The translations under genes and the position numbers were made by a program. The notes below the pieces were generated by a model. It was not told the DNA's origin. It searched no databases and worked only from the letters and a program-made list of their open reading frames with translations. Below are positions 57,721 to 64,000 of a stretch of 64,000 nucleotides of DNA, in pieces (within the stretch, counting starts at the first letter, position 1; each line of letters begins with the position of its first letter). The stretch is from Oribacterium sp. NK2B42 (GTDB lineage Bacteria > Bacillota > Clostridia > Lachnospirales > Lachnospiraceae), in assembly GCF_000424445.1 (NCBI RefSeq), contig NZ_KE384190.1:3597-67596 (forward strand). The letters run 5' to 3'.

Positions 57721-57808
57721 ACCTACTCCGTCAAGTTAATAATAACACTCTACCACAAGCCATACAATTATCAAAGAGCTGATTTAATGCAATCTTTATA
57801 TGTGCAAA

Positions 57809-58451
57809 GTAAGCGCCAAGTGATAGGGCGGATTCCATCCGCCGCCTTATAGTGAAATAATAGAGGGACATGATGAGTACTATAGTCTCATGTCTTTCTA
57901 AGGTATTCACAGTAGTAGATCATTTTACTACACTGCCGATTCATAGAAGTAGACTATTTTACTCTACTAACGAAGGAGGAATAGTAACACAACTATGAAT
58001 ACAAGAGCCAAAAAGCGCACTGCCGAGGAGTGGCGCCAGATCATCCTCGAAGCACGTAACAGTGGAATGAGTGATTTTGAGTACTGTCGCATAAACACAA
58101 TTCCACCAAGTACATTTTACAGAGCAATCAAGCGATTGCGTAAACTTTCCTGCGACATCCCTTCCGGAGTAGTAACACGTGACGGGACACAACAGGAAGT
58201 TGTACCAATAAATATCTCTGATCTGCCAATAACAAGACCTGATCAGATGAAACCGGTCTCAGGAGTTGTCTGCGACAGTATATCAGGTCACCTTGAGATA
58301 ACAATGCGGATCACTATAGGAGGCAGTACCCTCGAATTATCAAACAATGCAGATCCAACGCTCATTGGTTCAGTATTGAGGATGCTGAACAGCTCATGCT
58401 AGGCGATATTTCCAGCGCAAACAAGATATATCTTGTTACAGGCTACACAGA
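57809..58451 (+). mobile_element. IS66 family element, left part
   Basis: The left end begins GTAAGCGCCAAG (57809), the usual IS66 terminal repeat. tnpA follows whole, tnpB starts in overlap and is cut after 19 codons by RIT element 1. The rest of tnpB is at 61922-62058, cut again by RIT element 2. The tnpC transposase and right end must lie beyond the window. Confidence 0.85.
57995..58402 (+). CDS. tnpA: IS66 accessory protein TnpA
   Basis: 135 residues. The first 60 are a helix-turn-helix: KKRTAEEWRQIILEARNSGM, FEYCRINTIPPSTFYRAIKR. The rest is typical of IS66 TnpA: SGHLEITMRITIGGSTLELS, DPTLIGSVLRML. TnpA is needed, with TnpB and TnpC, for IS66 transposition, probably through DNA binding at the ends. 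ATG 57995 has GGAGGAATAG ahead. It looks intact but the element cannot move, because tnpB is interrupted. Confidence 0.9.
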   Translation: MNTRAKKRTAEEWRQIILEARNSGMSDFEYCRINTIPPSTFYRAIKRLRKLSCDIPSGVVTRDGTQQEVVPINISDLPITRPDQMKPVSGVVCDSISGHLEITMRITIGGSTLELSNNADPTLIGSVLRMLNSSC

Positions 58452-58452
58452 T
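58396..58452 (+). pseudogene. tnpB: IS66 tnpB, 5' fragment
   Basis: Starts in overlap with the tnpA stop and reads MLGDISSANKIYLVTGYTD, the conserved start of TnpB, up to the insertion of RIT element 1. The open frame continues only into element DNA (YPRRIIIREN) and stops. Confidence 0.88.
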
Positions 58453-58532
58453 TATCCGAGAAGAATTATTATTCGAGAAAATTTTAGTAAAGTCAGTTTC
58501 TACCAGTGTTTTCATTAATTCTTCTCGGATAA
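58452..58532. repeat. Left end of RIT 1, inverted copy pair
   Basis: TTATCCGAGAAGAATT (58452-58467) and its exact complement (58517-58532) enclose 49 bases. The inner copy lies 5 bases beyond the ritC stop. RIT element 2 has the same plan at 62059-62151. Confidence 0.8.
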
Positions 58533-58537
58533 TCATT

Positions 58538-59560
58538 CTACTTCCTCTTCAAGAAATCCGGAACATCTTTTTTAGAATCCTTTATTTCAACTTTGTTTCC
58601 GAACCAAGTATCATTCCACTCTTTTAGTTTCTTGTCGACTAAATCTTGTGACATCTCAGCATAAATCTGTGTGGTCTGAACCGATACATGACCTAATATG
58701 TTCTTGATTGTTACTATATCTACTCCGGCTTCCAATAAATGACATGCAGTACTATGCCGCATGGAATGAGGAGGATAACTGTCTTTTAAGAACATAGTCG
58801 GATATTTTTCTTTTGCAATAGTCACATACTTTTTATATATTCCCTCAACGCAAGATATGGTCATCTTTTCGTGTGTTTGACTTGAGAAAACATGTCTTTC
58901 AGGATAACCTCCGATGTGTCTGTGTCTGATATATTTTTGGATTGTTTCTGCCAAAGCCAATGAAATGCCTACTTGTCTGGATTTTGATCCTTTGCCAATC
59001 AACGTAACAGATGCGTTCTTATCATTTATATGGAGCCCATTCACGGTAAAATCACAGACCTCCTGAGCTCTGGCACCTGTTGCATACATAAATGATAGAA
59101 GAACTTTATCTCTCAACCCAGTTTCATATGTTTCATCTGGAAGTGCCAAAAGTGCTTTTATTTCATCTCTTGAGAAAACTGCTCGTATTTTCTTGTCACT
59201 GCGCTTTAGCGGAATCTTTATGACAGCACTTCTGAATACCGAAGCTGCATCAAAATCTCTATTCTGCGCATACTCAGAGAATGCAGAAAGAGCGGATAGA
59301 CGTTGGTTTCTGGTGACAGCCTTACAATTTCTTTCTTTTTCAAGCCAGTTAAAGAATTCTAGCAGAGTATCATAATTCAAATCGGAAAATCTTAAATCAT
59401 CAGCTTTGATCCCTTTTATATCTCGCATAAAACCGAGCAGCAACATAAAACTTTGCTTGTAAGATTCTATCGTGTTAGGACTAAGTCCTCGGCTGTGTGG
59501 CAAGTATATCTCAAAATAATCTTCCAGTAGTGAAATAAATTCAATCTTGCGCCTACTCAT
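58538..59560 (-). CDS. ritC: Tyrosine recombinase RitC of RIT element 1
   Basis: 340 residues. An N-terminal SAM-like DNA-binding domain (about 1-115; LSPNTIESYKQSFMLLLGFM) is followed by the catalytic domain. The active residues are Arg in ATGARAQEVCDF, His-x-x-Arg in HSMRHSTACHLLEAG, His in LGHVSVQTTQ, and the nucleophile Tyr in IYAEMSQ. The start overlaps ritB by 8 bases. Such recombinases cut and join DNA through a Tyr link. The last gene of the operon, ending next to the left terminal repeat. Confidence 0.93.
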   Translation of the reverse strand: MSRRKIEFISLLEDYFEIYLPHSRGLSPNTIESYKQSFMLLLGFMRDIKGIKADDLRFSDLNYDTLLEFFNWLEKERNCKAVTRNQRLSALSAFSEYAQNRDFDAASVFRSAVIKIPLKRSDKKIRAVFSRDEIKALLALPDETYETGLRDKVLLSFMYATGARAQEVCDFTVNGLHINDKNASVTLIGKGSKSRQVGISLALAETIQKYIRHRHIGGYPERHVFSSQTHEKMTISCVEGIYKKYVTIAKEKYPTMFLKDSYPPHSMRHSTACHLLEAGVDIVTIKNILGHVSVQTTQIYAEMSQDLVDKKLKEWNDTWFGNKVEIKDSKKDVPDFLKRK

Positions 59561-60560
59561 AGATGGTTACCTCCGGGAACAATTCTCCAGAATAATCATC
59601 AAACTTTGTAAGCGCATCCTCAAAATAATTACCGCTGTATTTCAAGTACTTTTCAGTTTCATAAAGACTATCATGGCCTAAATATGTTGATAAATATGGA
59701 ACAGATTCGCTAGCTTTTATACCATGACGTTCGTTTTTGTCAAATGATCTTACAACAAACGTATGGCGGAAACAGTGAAGACAAACACCGCGTCCATTTT
59801 TTAAAGGTTTTCCGGTGTTTATTCCGGCCAACCTAATAATACTCCTATAATAGTTTCCAACGTTATCAGTCGAAATATGACTATGCATGTCTTCTGCAGG
59901 AAAAAGATATGCATCAGAATCATTAAGTATTCCCATACCTATGCAATAGCGATAAAGAATCTCAGCCAACTCTTTCCCAAAGGGAACCAGACGTTGTTTG
60001 TATTTTTTTGTAACCTTCAGAATAATAAGGTTCCTGTCAAAATCCAAATCTCCAACTTTAATGTTTACCGCTTCTCCGACACGTAGTCCGCAGCAATACA
60101 GCAGGCGCAGGAGCATCGGCATCTCTTTTTCCACATATTTGTTCTTTCTAAACTTGTAGACAACCATTGAATCAGCAAATGCAAAGATTTTTTCTACATC
60201 CTCGTCAGAATAGAGATAAGGAACATATGTGTCATGCGTCACAAGATTTCTTGGAATGAAGCACTTATAACCTGAGTTAACCAGAAAGATTAGTAACTGT
60301 CTGACATAGTGAACATGCTGGCCGGCAGTATTCAACGAAATACCTTTTCTAACTTCCTTAATCCAGGATTCGATTACCGTTTCTGGTATTTCTTTAACAA
60401 TATGTTTGATCCTACACAGATATTCATCAAATAAAATCATTGTTCTTCGATAATGTCTATATGCCTCTGGACCGAGTTCCGACTTTCTTATAGAAAGGTG
60501 GAGCTTTAGTTCATCACAAAAAACAGAATTGAACTCTGTCATCTCATCACACCTCCCCAT
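59553..60560 (-). CDS. ritB: Tyrosine recombinase RitB of RIT element 1
   Basis: 335 residues. Catalytic Arg in CCGLRVGEAVNI, Lys in the beta-hairpin VTKKYKQRLVPFG, H-x-x-R in HCFRHTFVVRSF, His in YLGHDSLYETEK and Tyr in KYLKYSG. It overlaps ritA by 14 bases and ritC by 8 bases, so the three proteins are made together. All catalytic residues are present. Confidence 0.93.
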   Translation of the reverse strand: MGRCDEMTEFNSVFCDELKLHLSIRKSELGPEAYRHYRRTMILFDEYLCRIKHIVKEIPETVIESWIKEVRKGISLNTAGQHVHYVRQLLIFLVNSGYKCFIPRNLVTHDTYVPYLYSDEDVEKIFAFADSMVVYKFRKNKYVEKEMPMLLRLLYCCGLRVGEAVNIKVGDLDFDRNLIILKVTKKYKQRLVPFGKELAEILYRYCIGMGILNDSDAYLFPAEDMHSHISTDNVGNYYRSIIRLAGINTGKPLKNGRGVCLHCFRHTFVVRSFDKNERHGIKASESVPYLSTYLGHDSLYETEKYLKYSGNYFEDALTKFDDYSGELFPEVTIYE

Positions 60561-61761
60561 TTAGAAATGCGAAAAACTTTCCGGTAGGTAGTGGTGGCAT
60601 CAGACTATATCTTCTGAGACGCTCTATGTCTACTCGGGCATAATGCTTAATAGCACTTTTAGAGCTGTGCCCTAGTACTTTTCTTACAGTCTCATAGCTT
60701 ATCCCATCATTAACCATAGAACTTGCCAAAGAAGATCTTAAGGCATGAGGACCTTTTTTGCGTTTTCCAGTATCAACATTAGCCAGCATGATGTATTTTT
60801 TCAATGCTGCTCTGATGGATGAAGTCGTTATCGGGTTATGCGGAGAATAAACACTTATAAATATGAAATCTGATTTTACTGATGGTCTGGCGGATAAATA
60901 ATCATCAATTGCTGACTTAACATCTCTGATTAACGGAATATGCAGCATGTGTCTTGTCTTTTCCTGGAGGATATCTATGCTGGATCTATTCTCAACATCC
61001 TTTATCTTTAACTTTACAATATCCCCTGAGCGCATTCCCATTCTTGAGGCAAGGAGGATCATTGCATAATCCCGTTTTCCTAGAAGTGTGCTCGTATCTA
61101 TGATTTCTTCTATCCTTCGTATTTCTTCAATAGAATAAACACTTGGAATTACATATGGTTTCCTATAGTGAGGAACTAGTGTTGAATAGTCTGAATTCAC
61201 ACCTTCATAATCATTAAGATATCTTAGGAACAACCTGATCTCACCCCAGAGACCTTGATAAGTTATCTTTATACAGGCTTGGCTTATAGATGCTGGCGAA
61301 AGGTCTGAGAGAGTTTTACAGTCTAGTTTTACCAGCTCATCCAAAAACCATGACACCGCATATCTTTTGAAAATGATGGTGCCCTTTGCATAGCCTTTAT
61401 TGGTAATCCTTGAACAATATCTATCCACTATTTCACCAAAATCATCCGTTAAACAAAAATGTTTACAGCGATCAGTGTGCAAATTTATCCAAGTATTGTT
61501 TAAGATATCGTTCAAACGGTACACTACAGTCCTAAGATTACTATAGTACTGGTTTTTACCATGTTTAGAATAATAATCGTTTAAAAATGCATCCCCTCCT
61601 TTCGCACTATAATAATTGTAGCCGTTTCCTTTTAGCCATTTGAAGATGCTGTTACACTGATACCTATAGCCGGTAACAGTAATAGGTGTACACCCTTGTT
61701 CGCTAAGTCTTTCAAGAAGTGTTGCCCTAAGTTCCTCAAATGAATAGCTCTGCACTTGCAT
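60547..61761 (-). CDS. ritA: Tyrosine recombinase RitA of RIT element 1
   Basis: 404 residues, the largest of the trio. An extended N-terminal part (1-190) precedes the catalytic domain: Arg in SRMGMRSGDIVKL, H-x-x-R in HALRSSLASSMV, His in LGHSSKSAIKH and Tyr in HYARVDI. AAGGAGG stands 10 bases before ATG 61761, and an inverted repeat lies just before it. First gene of the operon. Confidence 0.93.
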   Translation of the reverse strand: MQVQSYSFEELRATLLERLSEQGCTPITVTGYRYQCNSIFKWLKGNGYNYYSAKGGDAFLNDYYSKHGKNQYYSNLRTVVYRLNDILNNTWINLHTDRCKHFCLTDDFGEIVDRYCSRITNKGYAKGTIIFKRYAVSWFLDELVKLDCKTLSDLSPASISQACIKITYQGLWGEIRLFLRYLNDYEGVNSDYSTLVPHYRKPYVIPSVYSIEEIRRIEEIIDTSTLLGKRDYAMILLASRMGMRSGDIVKLKIKDVENRSSIDILQEKTRHMLHIPLIRDVKSAIDDYLSARPSVKSDFIFISVYSPHNPITTSSIRAALKKYIMLANVDTGKRKKGPHALRSSLASSMVNDGISYETVRKVLGHSSKSAIKHYARVDIERLRRYSLMPPLPTGKFFAFLNGEV

Positions 61762-61775
61762 TACAGCAATACCTC

Positions 61776-61799
61776 CTTATTGTAGTTTGATACAATAAG
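61776..61799. promoter_or_regulatory. Inverted repeat next to the ritA ribosome site
   Basis: CTTATTGTA-GTTTGA-TACAATAAG, 9-bp perfect arms, overlaps the AAGGAGG of ritA on the minus strand. It could hide the ribosome site in a hairpin or bind a recombinase to shut the operon. Confidence 0.55.
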
Positions 61800-61868
61800 A
61801 ATAAATGAGCTATCGTTATTCGAGAAGAATCATAAAAGATTCGTAAATCAGCAAATAAAACTAAAATC

Positions 61869-61928
61869 TTCTCGAATAATAATTCTTCTCGGATAATCTG
61901 TGTTATTCCAGTTCTCAAATAACACAGA
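61869..61928. repeat. Right end of RIT 1 and junction dyad
   Basis: Terminal repeat (61869-61896), then TCTGTGTTAT-TCCAGTTCTCAA-ATAACACAGA (61897-61928), a 10-bp inverted pair around 12 bases. This looks like a tyrosine recombinase core site. The left end lacks the extra 18 bases (61904-61921). Confidence 0.75.
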
Positions 61929-62058
61929 CATGAGAAAGAGCATAGATGGACTAATGGCCATAGTCCGCGATGCTTATAACCTTGATCCTTACAGTAATGC
62001 TGTATTCTTGTTCTGTGGCAGACGAGCGGATCGCATAAAGGCCTTACACTACGAAAAG
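61922..62058 (+). pseudogene. tnpB: IS66 tnpB, central fragment
   Basis: Reads TDMRKSIDGLMAIVRDAYNL, DPYSNAVFLFCGRRADRIKA and LHYEK, the core of TnpB, which continues directly from the 5' fragment. At 62059 RIT element 2 begins, so the end of tnpB is out of the window. Confidence 0.9.
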
Positions 62059-62157
62059 TTATCCGCACACTTTTGTTATCCGAAGATATCTGAATAAAAA
62101 CCAGGTAGTTCAAGGATTTTAGGATATTTTAAATAAAAAATGTGCGGATAACAATAC

Positions 62158-63210
62158 TCATCTTAACCCACATTGGCGTGCCAGTTCATCTTCATCATCC
62201 GGCCATTCTTGTTCAACATCTGTTTTTGTGATCACCAAAGAGTCACCCATATTCATGACATCCCGCTTTTGTTCAAGTGATGGGAATGCATAATGATCTT
62301 TTGTTGTCTGAATGTTTGCATGTCCCATTGCCACAGCTATGGCTTCTATTTGAACGCCATCTCGATACAATCCTGTACCTCGAGTGCGCCGAAACATATG
62401 AGGGTATATTGTAGACGGCAAATCTGGATGATTTTCCCTGATTGCATCGCCATATTTCTTGAGTATCCTTTCGACATTACGCTCTGACATACGATGTCTT
62501 TCTCCATGCGAGGTTGTATATATGAATGGAATCCCTTCATTTACTGCACTGCGGCATTCTTGGTCATGAAACTCGGTTAAATATTGCCTGATTAGAGGTA
62601 TTGTCTTTTCAGAAATTGGAACTATTCGTTCCTTGTTACCTTTACCATGAACAAGCAGATGCGGAGTCTCTACTTTGATCTGTACATCTCCTAGATTTAG
62701 ATTAATTAATTCATCAGCTCTGATCATAGTGTCAAATAACACTGACATGATCATTGTATCTCTGGTTCCTGTTTTTGTATTTGGCGGAGCATCCAAAAGA
62801 GCGGCTATGGTTTCCTTGTTCTCAATGATAGGACGAATCACCTTCGGCACTCTCAGAAACGGAACTTCAGATACACTTATCTGTATCTGCTGTATTGAAA
62901 TGTCTTTTGCAGCTGCATATCGTAAATACGTCTTTATGACTGCAAGTCGATTGTTAATGGTGCTTGGTTTTCGTTTCTTTTTATCAAGCAACCAGTTACG
63001 ATACTCAAGTATAAAGTCAAATGTGCAGTCCAAAAAAGTAAACTCTCTTATTGAGATACCGCACTCATCAGTTACATATCTTCGAAAAACAGTAAGCCCA
63101 TCCTTGTACGTTTTGATAGTTTTCTCACTGTCGTGACCCTGAGGCAGATACACATGAAGGAAATCCATGGTCATTGAGAAAAACAAATTCTTACCAAGTG
63201 TTCTCTTCAT
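62158..63210 (-). CDS. ritC: Tyrosine recombinase RitC of RIT element 2
   Basis: 350 residues. Catalytic Arg in TMIRADELINLN, Lys in GKGNKERIVPI, H-x-x-R in HMFRRTRGTGLYRDG, His in MGHANIQTTKDH and Tyr in HYAFPSLEQ. The N-terminal domain is seen in HDSEKTIKTYKDGLTVFRRY. It overlaps the upstream ritB gene by 4 bases. It has the same length and place as element 1 RitC but only distant sequence similarity by eye. Confidence 0.93.
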   Translation of the reverse strand: MKRTLGKNLFFSMTMDFLHVYLPQGHDSEKTIKTYKDGLTVFRRYVTDECGISIREFTFLDCTFDFILEYRNWLLDKKKRKPSTINNRLAVIKTYLRYAAAKDISIQQIQISVSEVPFLRVPKVIRPIIENKETIAALLDAPPNTKTGTRDTMIMSVLFDTMIRADELINLNLGDVQIKVETPHLLVHGKGNKERIVPISEKTIPLIRQYLTEFHDQECRSAVNEGIPFIYTTSHGERHRMSERNVERILKKYGDAIRENHPDLPSTIYPHMFRRTRGTGLYRDGVQIEAIAVAMGHANIQTTKDHYAFPSLEQKRDVMNMGDSLVITKTDVEQEWPDDEDELARQCGLR

Positions 63211-64000
63211 CTTACTCTCACCTCCGGGATTACTTTGGAGGCGACTGTATCATTCTTATGAATTATTCTGAAGGCCTCCTTGACCTGATGGTAGTAGTAG
63301 AATGTCTCATTGACAGACGTATGGCCAAGCTGTCTGCTGAGATATGGCATCATAACACTGAGATCAACGCCTTCTTCCATCCACTGGTTCATGCGGATTA
63401 CTACATATGTATGACGGAGAGAATGGATTGTAGGAGTTTTTTCGCAAGTTTCAGCATACTTTGTTTTCTTCCAAAACTTATTGAAACGATCACCTATTCC
63501 ACCAGAGATATGCTTGGAAGCATCTAATGCCGGAAATAGCCAAACCGTATTCAGATCCGGTATGTTTAAAAGATAGGTAATGTACTTCTTCAGAAGTTCT
63601 ACCATATCCTCCGAGATATAAATCAGCCTGTCTTTATGTCCCTTTGCACCACGAATAATAATGATACTATTGTCATAGTCGATATCTTCTCTTTTTATGT
63701 TGAGTGCTTCATTTCTTCTAAGCCCCGTGGTCAGGATCAGTCTGAACAGGATTTTGTATTCATTCGATAACCGAATAACATGAGGCCAATTCTTTTGCGG
63801 AAAATAACTATCTATAACCGAAAACAATTCAGTTATTTCGTTGGCAGAAAGTATGTGTATAATCGGATGGTCTTTAACGTATCTCTCATCAGGTATGTAT
63901 GCAGCATGCCCAATACCGTTCATAAATATCGAAAGCTGTCGTAACACACTTATACGGGCACTTCTACTGGTTCTTCCTTCAGTTGTTCTTCTTTGCATCC
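63207..64000 (-). CDS. ritB: Tyrosine recombinase RitB of RIT element 2, cut by window edge
   Basis: At least 263 residues; the start lies beyond the right edge, since about 75 residues of the N-terminal domain are missing compared with RitB of element 1. Catalytic Arg in TGLRRNEALNIK, Lys in GAKGHKDRLIYIS, H-x-x-R in HSLRHTYVVIRM, His in LGHTSVNET and Tyr in FYYYHQV. An ATG at 63998 is only an internal Met. Confidence 0.9.
   Translation of the reverse strand, partial: MQRRTTEGRTSRSARISVLRQLSIFMNGIGHAAYIPDERYVKDHPIIHILSANEITELFSVIDSYFPQKNWPHVIRLSNEYKILFRLILTTGLRRNEALNIKREDIDYDNSIIIIRGAKGHKDRLIYISEDMVELLKKYITYLLNIPDLNTVWLFPALDASKHISGGIGDRFNKFWKKTKYAETCEKTPTIHSLRHTYVVIRMNQWMEEGVDLSVMMPYLSRQLGHTSVNETFYYYHQVKEAFRIIHKNDTVASKVIPEVRVR

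Follow-up and report, generated by a model that had tools for sequence, protein, structure and literature searches.

Two RIT (recombinase in trio) transposons, element 1 (E1) and element 2 (E2), interrupt the tnpB gene of what appears to be one IS66 copy in Oribacterium sp. NK2B42, at the end of the 64,000-nt stretch of contig C19 analyzed here (the window; C19 continues 2,198 bases past its end). Both are RIT members by gene content. Our principal reading, to which we assign a probability of about 0.82, is that they belong to different RIT clades, that each is site-specific for its own IS66 codon stretch, and that they would move by exchange at a 6-bp core. Comparison of insertion sites across genomes strongly supports the specificity of E1's clade for one codon stretch of IS66 tnpB and of E2's relatives for other IS66 codon stretches. 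E1 and E2 would lie side by side in one IS66 because both are IS66 specialists; apart from their host, no IS66 copy carrying a complete tnpC was found in this genome.

Relatives were collected by searching E1 RitC in 397 family genomes (33 with a match at 1e-40) and by a pattern-based scan of 84,980 species genomes with a six-RitC alignment, which contributed the best 80 of 116 relatives. The E1 clade, whose RitC proteins are at least 72% identical to that of E1, comprises 20 distinct elements including E1. All 17 readable members are inserted in IS66 tnpB at the same codon, within Gly-Tyr-Thr-Asp; for the unreadable ones (L053, L056 and L060) the contig breaks off at the element or within it. 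The core covers the third base of Tyr, the Thr codon and two bases of Asp and reads YACNGA in most cases, with A first in L057 and in one L061 core, the other L061 core being wholly different. Thirteen of the 17 were placed by tblastn of the flank with a match starting at Thr, counting only matches that start at Thr of G-x-T-D in two sound TnpB reference rows. L046 was also placed by tblastn, L065 (with a truncated ritC) by a weak match (0.001) together with its sequence, and L054 and L055 by eye from short left flanks. Random insertion sites elsewhere, which the earlier note had named as the outcome that would tell against a preferred target, are not what the studied clades show. That two elements hit a dispensable gene by chance, without preferring any target, has a negligible probability: an insertion sequence is, as general knowledge, likely a neutral landing place, but an IS66 copy makes up less than 0.1% of such a genome and 17 of 17 readable elements share one codon.

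A common codon could also reflect descent rather than targeting, had a RIT entered IS66 once and the IS66::RIT composite then spread as a unit. The host IS66 retains intact ends and a target duplication, as such a unit would, and near-identical transposon::RIT composites are described for Acidithiobacillus in the available part of PMC3414803. Host and passenger do not diverge together, however. Between L051 (strain NC2004) and L048 (Butyrivibrio sp. INlla14), RitC is 97% identical and TnpB 51%, and on this pair hitch-hiking of a single IS66::RIT unit was rejected. TnpB is less alike than RitC in 35 of 36 pairs, the two divergences are uncorrelated (Spearman 0.02), and E1-clade cores differ mainly at codon wobble bases of distinct tnpB genes. 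We consider shared descent very improbable. The contrast between L051 and L048 shows that the E1-clade insertions are independent, and from independent insertions we infer RIT movement.

Other clades use other IS66 codons. In the sister clade, 11 of 11 parsed members lie in tnpC at the codons of a Gly-Cys-Trp-Ala-His-type motif, with a core that is often GGCNCA; their hosts include Desulfosporosinus, Sporomusa, Pelosinus, Propionispira, Anaerobacillus, Gracilibacillus, Clostridium, a Sphaerochaeta and other Bacillota. One side matched weakly or out of place in three of the 11 (L071, L093 and L116), and L073 and L115 were placed by a later tblastn run. The same identity band also holds L064, with tnpC on one side only, L063, which meets a contig end and has a fitting core, L076 and L077, which have another target, and the unparsed L080 and L105. 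For E2, RitC was searched in 397 family genomes (27 genomes with a match at 1e-40) and 392 order genomes (7 at 1e-60), and eleven relatives at 37% identity or more were examined. Five of the six readable ones lie in IS66 tnpB or tnpC, at codons other than that of E1: tnpB holds L139 and L167, at Thr-Gly|(Tyr/Arg)-Thr-Asp, while tnpC holds L138, L143 and L165, close to an Asp-Asn...Glu-Arg motif (L138 on one side only, its motif assigned by eye). Four others are contig ends (L140, L141, L142 and L166), with the cores of L141 and L166 fitting the tnpB site, and at L168 no element ends were found. Loci about 30% identical to E2 RitC (L144–L153) mostly have other or unreadable targets. The proposal that IS66 tnpB is a preferred landing site is thus strongly supported and sharpened to one codon stretch per studied clade, in tnpB or tnpC. 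The pattern suggests that RIT families specialize in invading other mobile elements at fixed spots.

The earlier note had also raised the possibility that E2 was drawn to E1, that is, that it inserted beside or into a resident RIT. The two lie only 130 bp apart in tnpB and have TTATCCG ends in common, a likeness that holds on re-examination. E2 nevertheless carries a core of its own, GAAAAG, at a separate set of tnpB codons, five of its six readable relatives lie in IS66 genes, and none of the six readable loci (7.9–8.5 kb) holds a second RitC-like place. Attraction is not needed to account for the pair, and we give it scant credence beside independent targeting of IS66 by each element. L165, L167 and the sister-clade member L073 each have the same half of an IS66 gene on either side, oppositely oriented, a pattern suggestive of recombination through the element between two interrupted IS66 copies. 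A partial E2-like ritC with an internal stop (L154, G000:C1:152047-152601) has no IS66 match in its surrounding 8.6 kb.

Beyond the shared target, the right ends of E1 and E2 carry an arrangement absent from the earlier note: an extra 6-bp core in inverted orientation, then a spacer of 20 bp and one more core. In target orientation the integrated layout reads target, core cA, body, inverted core cB', 20-bp spacer, core cC and target. For E1, cA (CACAGA) occupies 58446–58451 on the plus strand, the 3445-bp body with inverted-repeat ends TTATCCGAGAAG... occupies 58452–61896 on the minus strand, cB' (TCTGTG, the reverse complement of CACAGA) lies at 61897–61902 on the minus strand, the palindrome-like spacer TTATTCCAGTTCTCAAATAA at 61903–61922 without strand, and cC (CACAGA) at 61923–61928 on the plus strand. 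The total insertion, including the inverted core, spacer and second core, is 3477 bp (58452–61928). E2 follows the same plan with GAAAAG, CTTTTC, TTATCTGAATATTCGGATAA and GAAAAG. Its cA lies at 62053–62058 on the plus strand, and its right end is found on contig C62 at L014:9571, followed by cB' (9570–9565), the spacer (9564–9545) and cC (9544–9539). Cores of 6 bp stand at both junctions and are in some elements unequal between the sides. Similar layouts were seen by eye in two proteobacterial plasmid RITs (L161 and L164). Among the 13 E1-clade cases matched by tblastn, the spacer is always on the tnpB 3' side, with the rit genes in one direction in nine and in the opposite direction in four.

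To compare cores, a parsing script required inverted-repeat ends and a spacer of the general form, and not equal cores. It parsed 52 of 101 inputs (the window, 20 and 80 loci), and removal of six repeats (five from the same contigs, one near-identical element in a second metagenome-assembled genome) left 46 elements with three cores. The 49 unparsed loci were checked by eye; many are contigs ending at the element, and no IS66 site was seen at L080, L105, L112, L117 or L119–L124. Among the 46, cA equals cC in 35, cA equals cB in 29, cB equals cC in 32, and all three are equal in 27. With shuffling within identity bands, cB equals cA or cC in 10 of 14 E1-clade elements (2.5 expected), in 10 of 12 elements of the 55–71% band (1.6 expected) and in 14 of the 20 remaining elements (6.7 expected), and none of 20,000 shuffles was as high in any of the three bands. 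The set of 14 includes contigs ending at or near the element (L056 and L057), the set of 12 consists of the eleven sister-clade members and L077, and the set of 20 includes near-copies from one genome. Among elements with unequal cA and cC, cB is the same as cC in five (L048, L049, L071, L088 and L108) and as cA in two (L045 and L090), whereas four have three different cores. All four combinations of body and spacer orientation occur, across several genomes, at a single repeated target context (L097, L103, L102 and L098/L118).

These features suggest a route of movement. The three recombinases would cut with a 6-bp stagger at cA and cC, and the excised unit would close into a circle whose joint reads cB'-spacer-core. 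To insert, the circle would undergo exchange with a core of matching sequence in IS66; the 6 bp of the target would be kept on one side and those of the donor left on the other as a footprint, as in Tn554 and SE elements. Outer cores that are equal or nearly so, with donor 6 bp sometimes on one side only, fit the Tn554/SE footprint rule. Exchange between inverted cores would flip the body or the spacer and make the cores alike, and the inverted core with its spacer would provide the circle joint with two inverted core sites.

The joint could alternatively act as a single strand, the moving strand folding back so that its core pairs with the inverted core in a hairpin; covariation would then reflect base pairing. 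Across 38 distinct joints (37 parsed by the script, plus E2), 14 pairs covary, six of them core pairs, with a score of 0.529 versus 0.170 for shuffled and 0.081–0.161 for slid alignments; because the joint rows are related, this score is not a probability. Folding gives hairpins for the predicted circle joints of E1 and E2 (z of -14.6 and -16.4), as it would for any long palindrome, and SE elements are hypothesized to circularize one strand in the accessible text of PMC10214605. Yet the same covariation is expected of a double-stranded palindrome whose identical inverted cores undergo exchange, and the opposite body and spacer orientations suggest that inversions between inverted cores do occur. 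We therefore treat the folded single strand as a tentative alternative, with odds clearly below even, and retain core exchange as the preferred reading without specifying the strand.

Several observations weigh against this reading. The cores are imperfect, cA differing from cC in 11 of 46 elements and cB matching neither in 12 of 46. No movement was observed, and circles and empty sites are predictions. Next to the core, the target bases show codon conservation and, judged by eye, do not evidently resemble the TTATCCG arms; on this comparison we rejected the idea that the target arms serve as recombinase arm sites. E2's own codon site (E-K|D-G-F) was found once only, and L169, the most distant readable E2 relative (38%), has ends and matching cores by eye and no IS66 match. 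Many RITs lie elsewhere, beside 3' hairpins, in an AlbA/HATPase gene, in an IS481-like transposase and at other sites. On the RitC tree, support for the tnpB (94/89) and tnpC (92/86) groups is below the tool's star threshold. Because some RIT clades do not target IS66, the claim cannot be extended to all RITs.

The RitC tree was built from 54 chosen labeled rows (L058, whose extracted protein is short, was excluded). On it, the ten target classes can be explained by 11 changes, where shuffled labels need 33.4 on average and 0 of 200 shuffles was as low. The tnpB (15 rows), tnpC (12 rows) and 3'-hairpin (10 rows) targets need one change each, with 0 of 500 shuffles as low; the hairpin group is supported at 100/100, and near-copies in it inflate that group's clustering. 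Judged from these placements, the target behaves as a clade trait of RITs. Outside IS66, L033 lies in an AlbA/HATPase gene (Pfam), L147 in an IS481-like transposase and L023/L082 in a DUF4314 gene, whereas the labels Rpn-like (L028 and L039, both without a Pfam match) and group-II-intron-like (L144) were assigned by eye. Seemingly, L028, L039, L033, L037 and L161 also stand at conserved motifs, among them an Rpn-like E-A-Q-S, a HATPase-like V-N-A-x-x-H and a D-E-A-Q box (by eye, with Pfam support for L033 only). A multi-copy clade (L091, L096, L097, L100, L109 and kin) lies, by eye, beside terminator-like hairpins (stem ...GGG then CGCA) and not in genes. Ten plasmid RITs were hand-picked among the 70 matches listed in searches of 645 and 358 records, one of them for its IS66 annotation; tnpC pieces adjoin the trio in five (L155–L159), lie further off in L160 and are absent from four. 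One scan of viral contigs with the RitC alignment gave 21 pattern-matching stretches and no relative.

A search of this genome for the exact E1-type spacer pattern, which excludes the E2 spacer, gave one match, E1 itself, and no solo scar. The genome of Lachnospiraceae bacterium 28-4 has nine spacers, eight at RIT ends and the ninth at a short gene-less relative. This relative (L173) is a few hundred bp long, has the ends, cores and spacer of a RIT, gave no match to RitC, and resembles a non-autonomous mini-RIT.

The host itself has the organization of an IS66 element, tnpA-tnpB-tnpC between inverted repeats with an 8-bp duplication, its tnpB being interrupted twice. The left copy of the target duplication, TGTGCAAA, occupies 57801–57808 (no strand) and the left terminal inverted repeat 57809–57826 (plus strand), matching the right end at 18 of 18 bases; the right copy of the duplication lies on C62 immediately beyond L014:7512. 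tnpA occupies 57995–58402 on the plus strand (NCBIfam IS66_ISAeme5_TnpA, 2.6e-7, 31 bits against a cut-off of 28). The tnpB 5' piece, whose start codon was assigned by eye, runs from 58396 to 58451 on the plus strand and ends in G-Y-T-D; the cut after Y-T-D described previously falls, strictly, after the second base of the Asp codon. The middle piece (D-M-R-K ... L-H-Y-E-K) spans 61929–62058 on the plus strand (Pfam TnpB_IS66, 7.8e-18, frame 61900–62097), and the second cut, reported after L-H-Y-E-K at 62058, holds as described. Within the 101 positions of the Pfam model, the middle piece covers 7–61 and the C62 piece 59–100. Reading beyond the window, as the earlier note had proposed, placed E2 ritA further along C19, and the E2 right end on C62, where it is followed by the tnpB remainder and an intact tnpC with a DDE_Tnp_IS66 domain (1.1e-72).

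The C19 and C62 pieces are read as one IS66 copy because the 18-bp ends are identical inverted repeats and TGTGCAAA stands at both ends. This shared duplication and these end repeats make it unlikely that the tnpB pieces come from two IS66 copies, a case the earlier note had considered; a chimera inside tnpB of the joined copy is formally possible. In whole-genome searches, the single other tnpB piece above the family cut-off is the one on C62, and the tnpC domain gave one full match and one short piece above its cut-off.

As previously described, E1 is complete, with a 3445-bp body and three overlapping tyrosine recombinase genes. All three are on the minus strand: ritC (58538–59560, 340 aa, PF00589 2.6e-31), ritB (59553–60560, 335 aa, 2e-18) and ritA (60547–61761, 404 aa, 2.3e-28), overlapping by 8 and 14 bp. 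The inverted repeat is 44 nt long and 98% identical. These genes fill the body (58538–61761), in which no TnpC/Srap/Tfp-type partner gene was found. E2 likewise encodes three PF00589 proteins in overlapping frames; to the two genes and matching end design noted before, a third gene of 552 aa past the window can now be added. The left part of its body runs from 62059 to 64000 and on to L001:9795 (contig end) on the minus strand. ritC (62158–63210, 350 aa, PF00589 2e-27) and ritB (63207–64000 and on to L001:7826, 340 aa) are also on the minus strand, and ritA (552 aa) lies at L001:7775-9433, past the window on the same contig. At 552 aa against 404 in E1, E2 RitA is a long first recombinase. At the C62 edge inside E2, a 68-aa frame corresponds to the C-terminal end of an IS110 transposase model (4.2e-7, 29 bits; a fragment, against a cut-off of 140 bits). 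The IS110-type region lies between E2 ritA and the E2 right end (L001:9440-9795 and L014:9816-10022), where both contigs end, and an IS110 copy inside E2 probably broke the assembly. The full length of E2 falls across this gap, and agreement with a size of about 3.5 kb was judged on E1 (3445 bp).

RITs were reportedly defined by Ricker et al. 2013 and Van Houdt et al. 2009. E1 and E2 resemble the RIT archetype in having three overlapping tyrosine recombinase genes, a length of about 3.5 kb and inverted-repeat ends with a palindrome. Trio order and lengths (404/335/340 and 552/340/350 aa) fit the RIT subgroup features given in the available part of PMC8138268. According to the accessible sections of these sources, an IS66 gene is inactivated by the archetype, ritA1B1C1 of Cupriavidus metallidurans CH34, and in two species radC contains a RIT (PMC2864759); the RITs of Acidithiobacillus occupy a transposase gene, and apart from a 28-9 bp inverted repeat and a palindrome, searches for repeats turned up nothing convincing (PMC3414803); and a 2023 paper tabulates RIT target specificity and movement as not tested (PMC10214605). 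The portions of the archetype literature consulted do not describe a fixed target codon, 6-bp core, inverted core or spacer. Literature on RITs, or on tyrosine recombinases with IS66, gave no such rule in titles and abstract openings, and the RIT-defining papers could contain part of it. To the extent that this could be checked, both the rule for targets and the core-spacer-core layout are new.

The exact predicted target (a short tnpB stretch), the joint and the mutable 6-bp core rule make RIT movement testable. They also suggest an ecology in which transposons specialize in, and interrupt, conserved codons of other transposons, with cores that record past hosts. A bolder extension, which we hold with considerable doubt, would make RITs codon-anchored parasites of mobile genes, each clade's recombinases reading one conserved, often active-site, codon stretch. 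The integrated unit would then be a two-cassette array (gene body and 20-bp mini-cassette) whose 6-bp cores are a memory of earlier host genes and which moves via a folded single-stranded joint.

Among known systems, Tn554, SE elements and GInts resemble the RITs studied here in combining several tyrosine recombinases with site-specific targets and a 6-bp core or footprint: with SE and Tn554, a footprint of 6 bp is transferred from the donor to the target (available text of PMC10214605), and GInts are thought to use 6–7 nt staggered cuts (available text of PMC5385486). They differ in having an extra small or non-catalytic protein, and the parts of these sources at hand describe no 20-bp spacer with an inverted core. 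IS66 is the host family of E1 and E2, characterized by tnpA, tnpB, tnpC, 18-bp ends and an 8-bp duplication, with tnpB here in three pieces. Integron attC sites have two inverted cores and are able to fold into a hairpin; the RIT joint resembles them in its inverted cores and predicted hairpin, whereas the genes differ.

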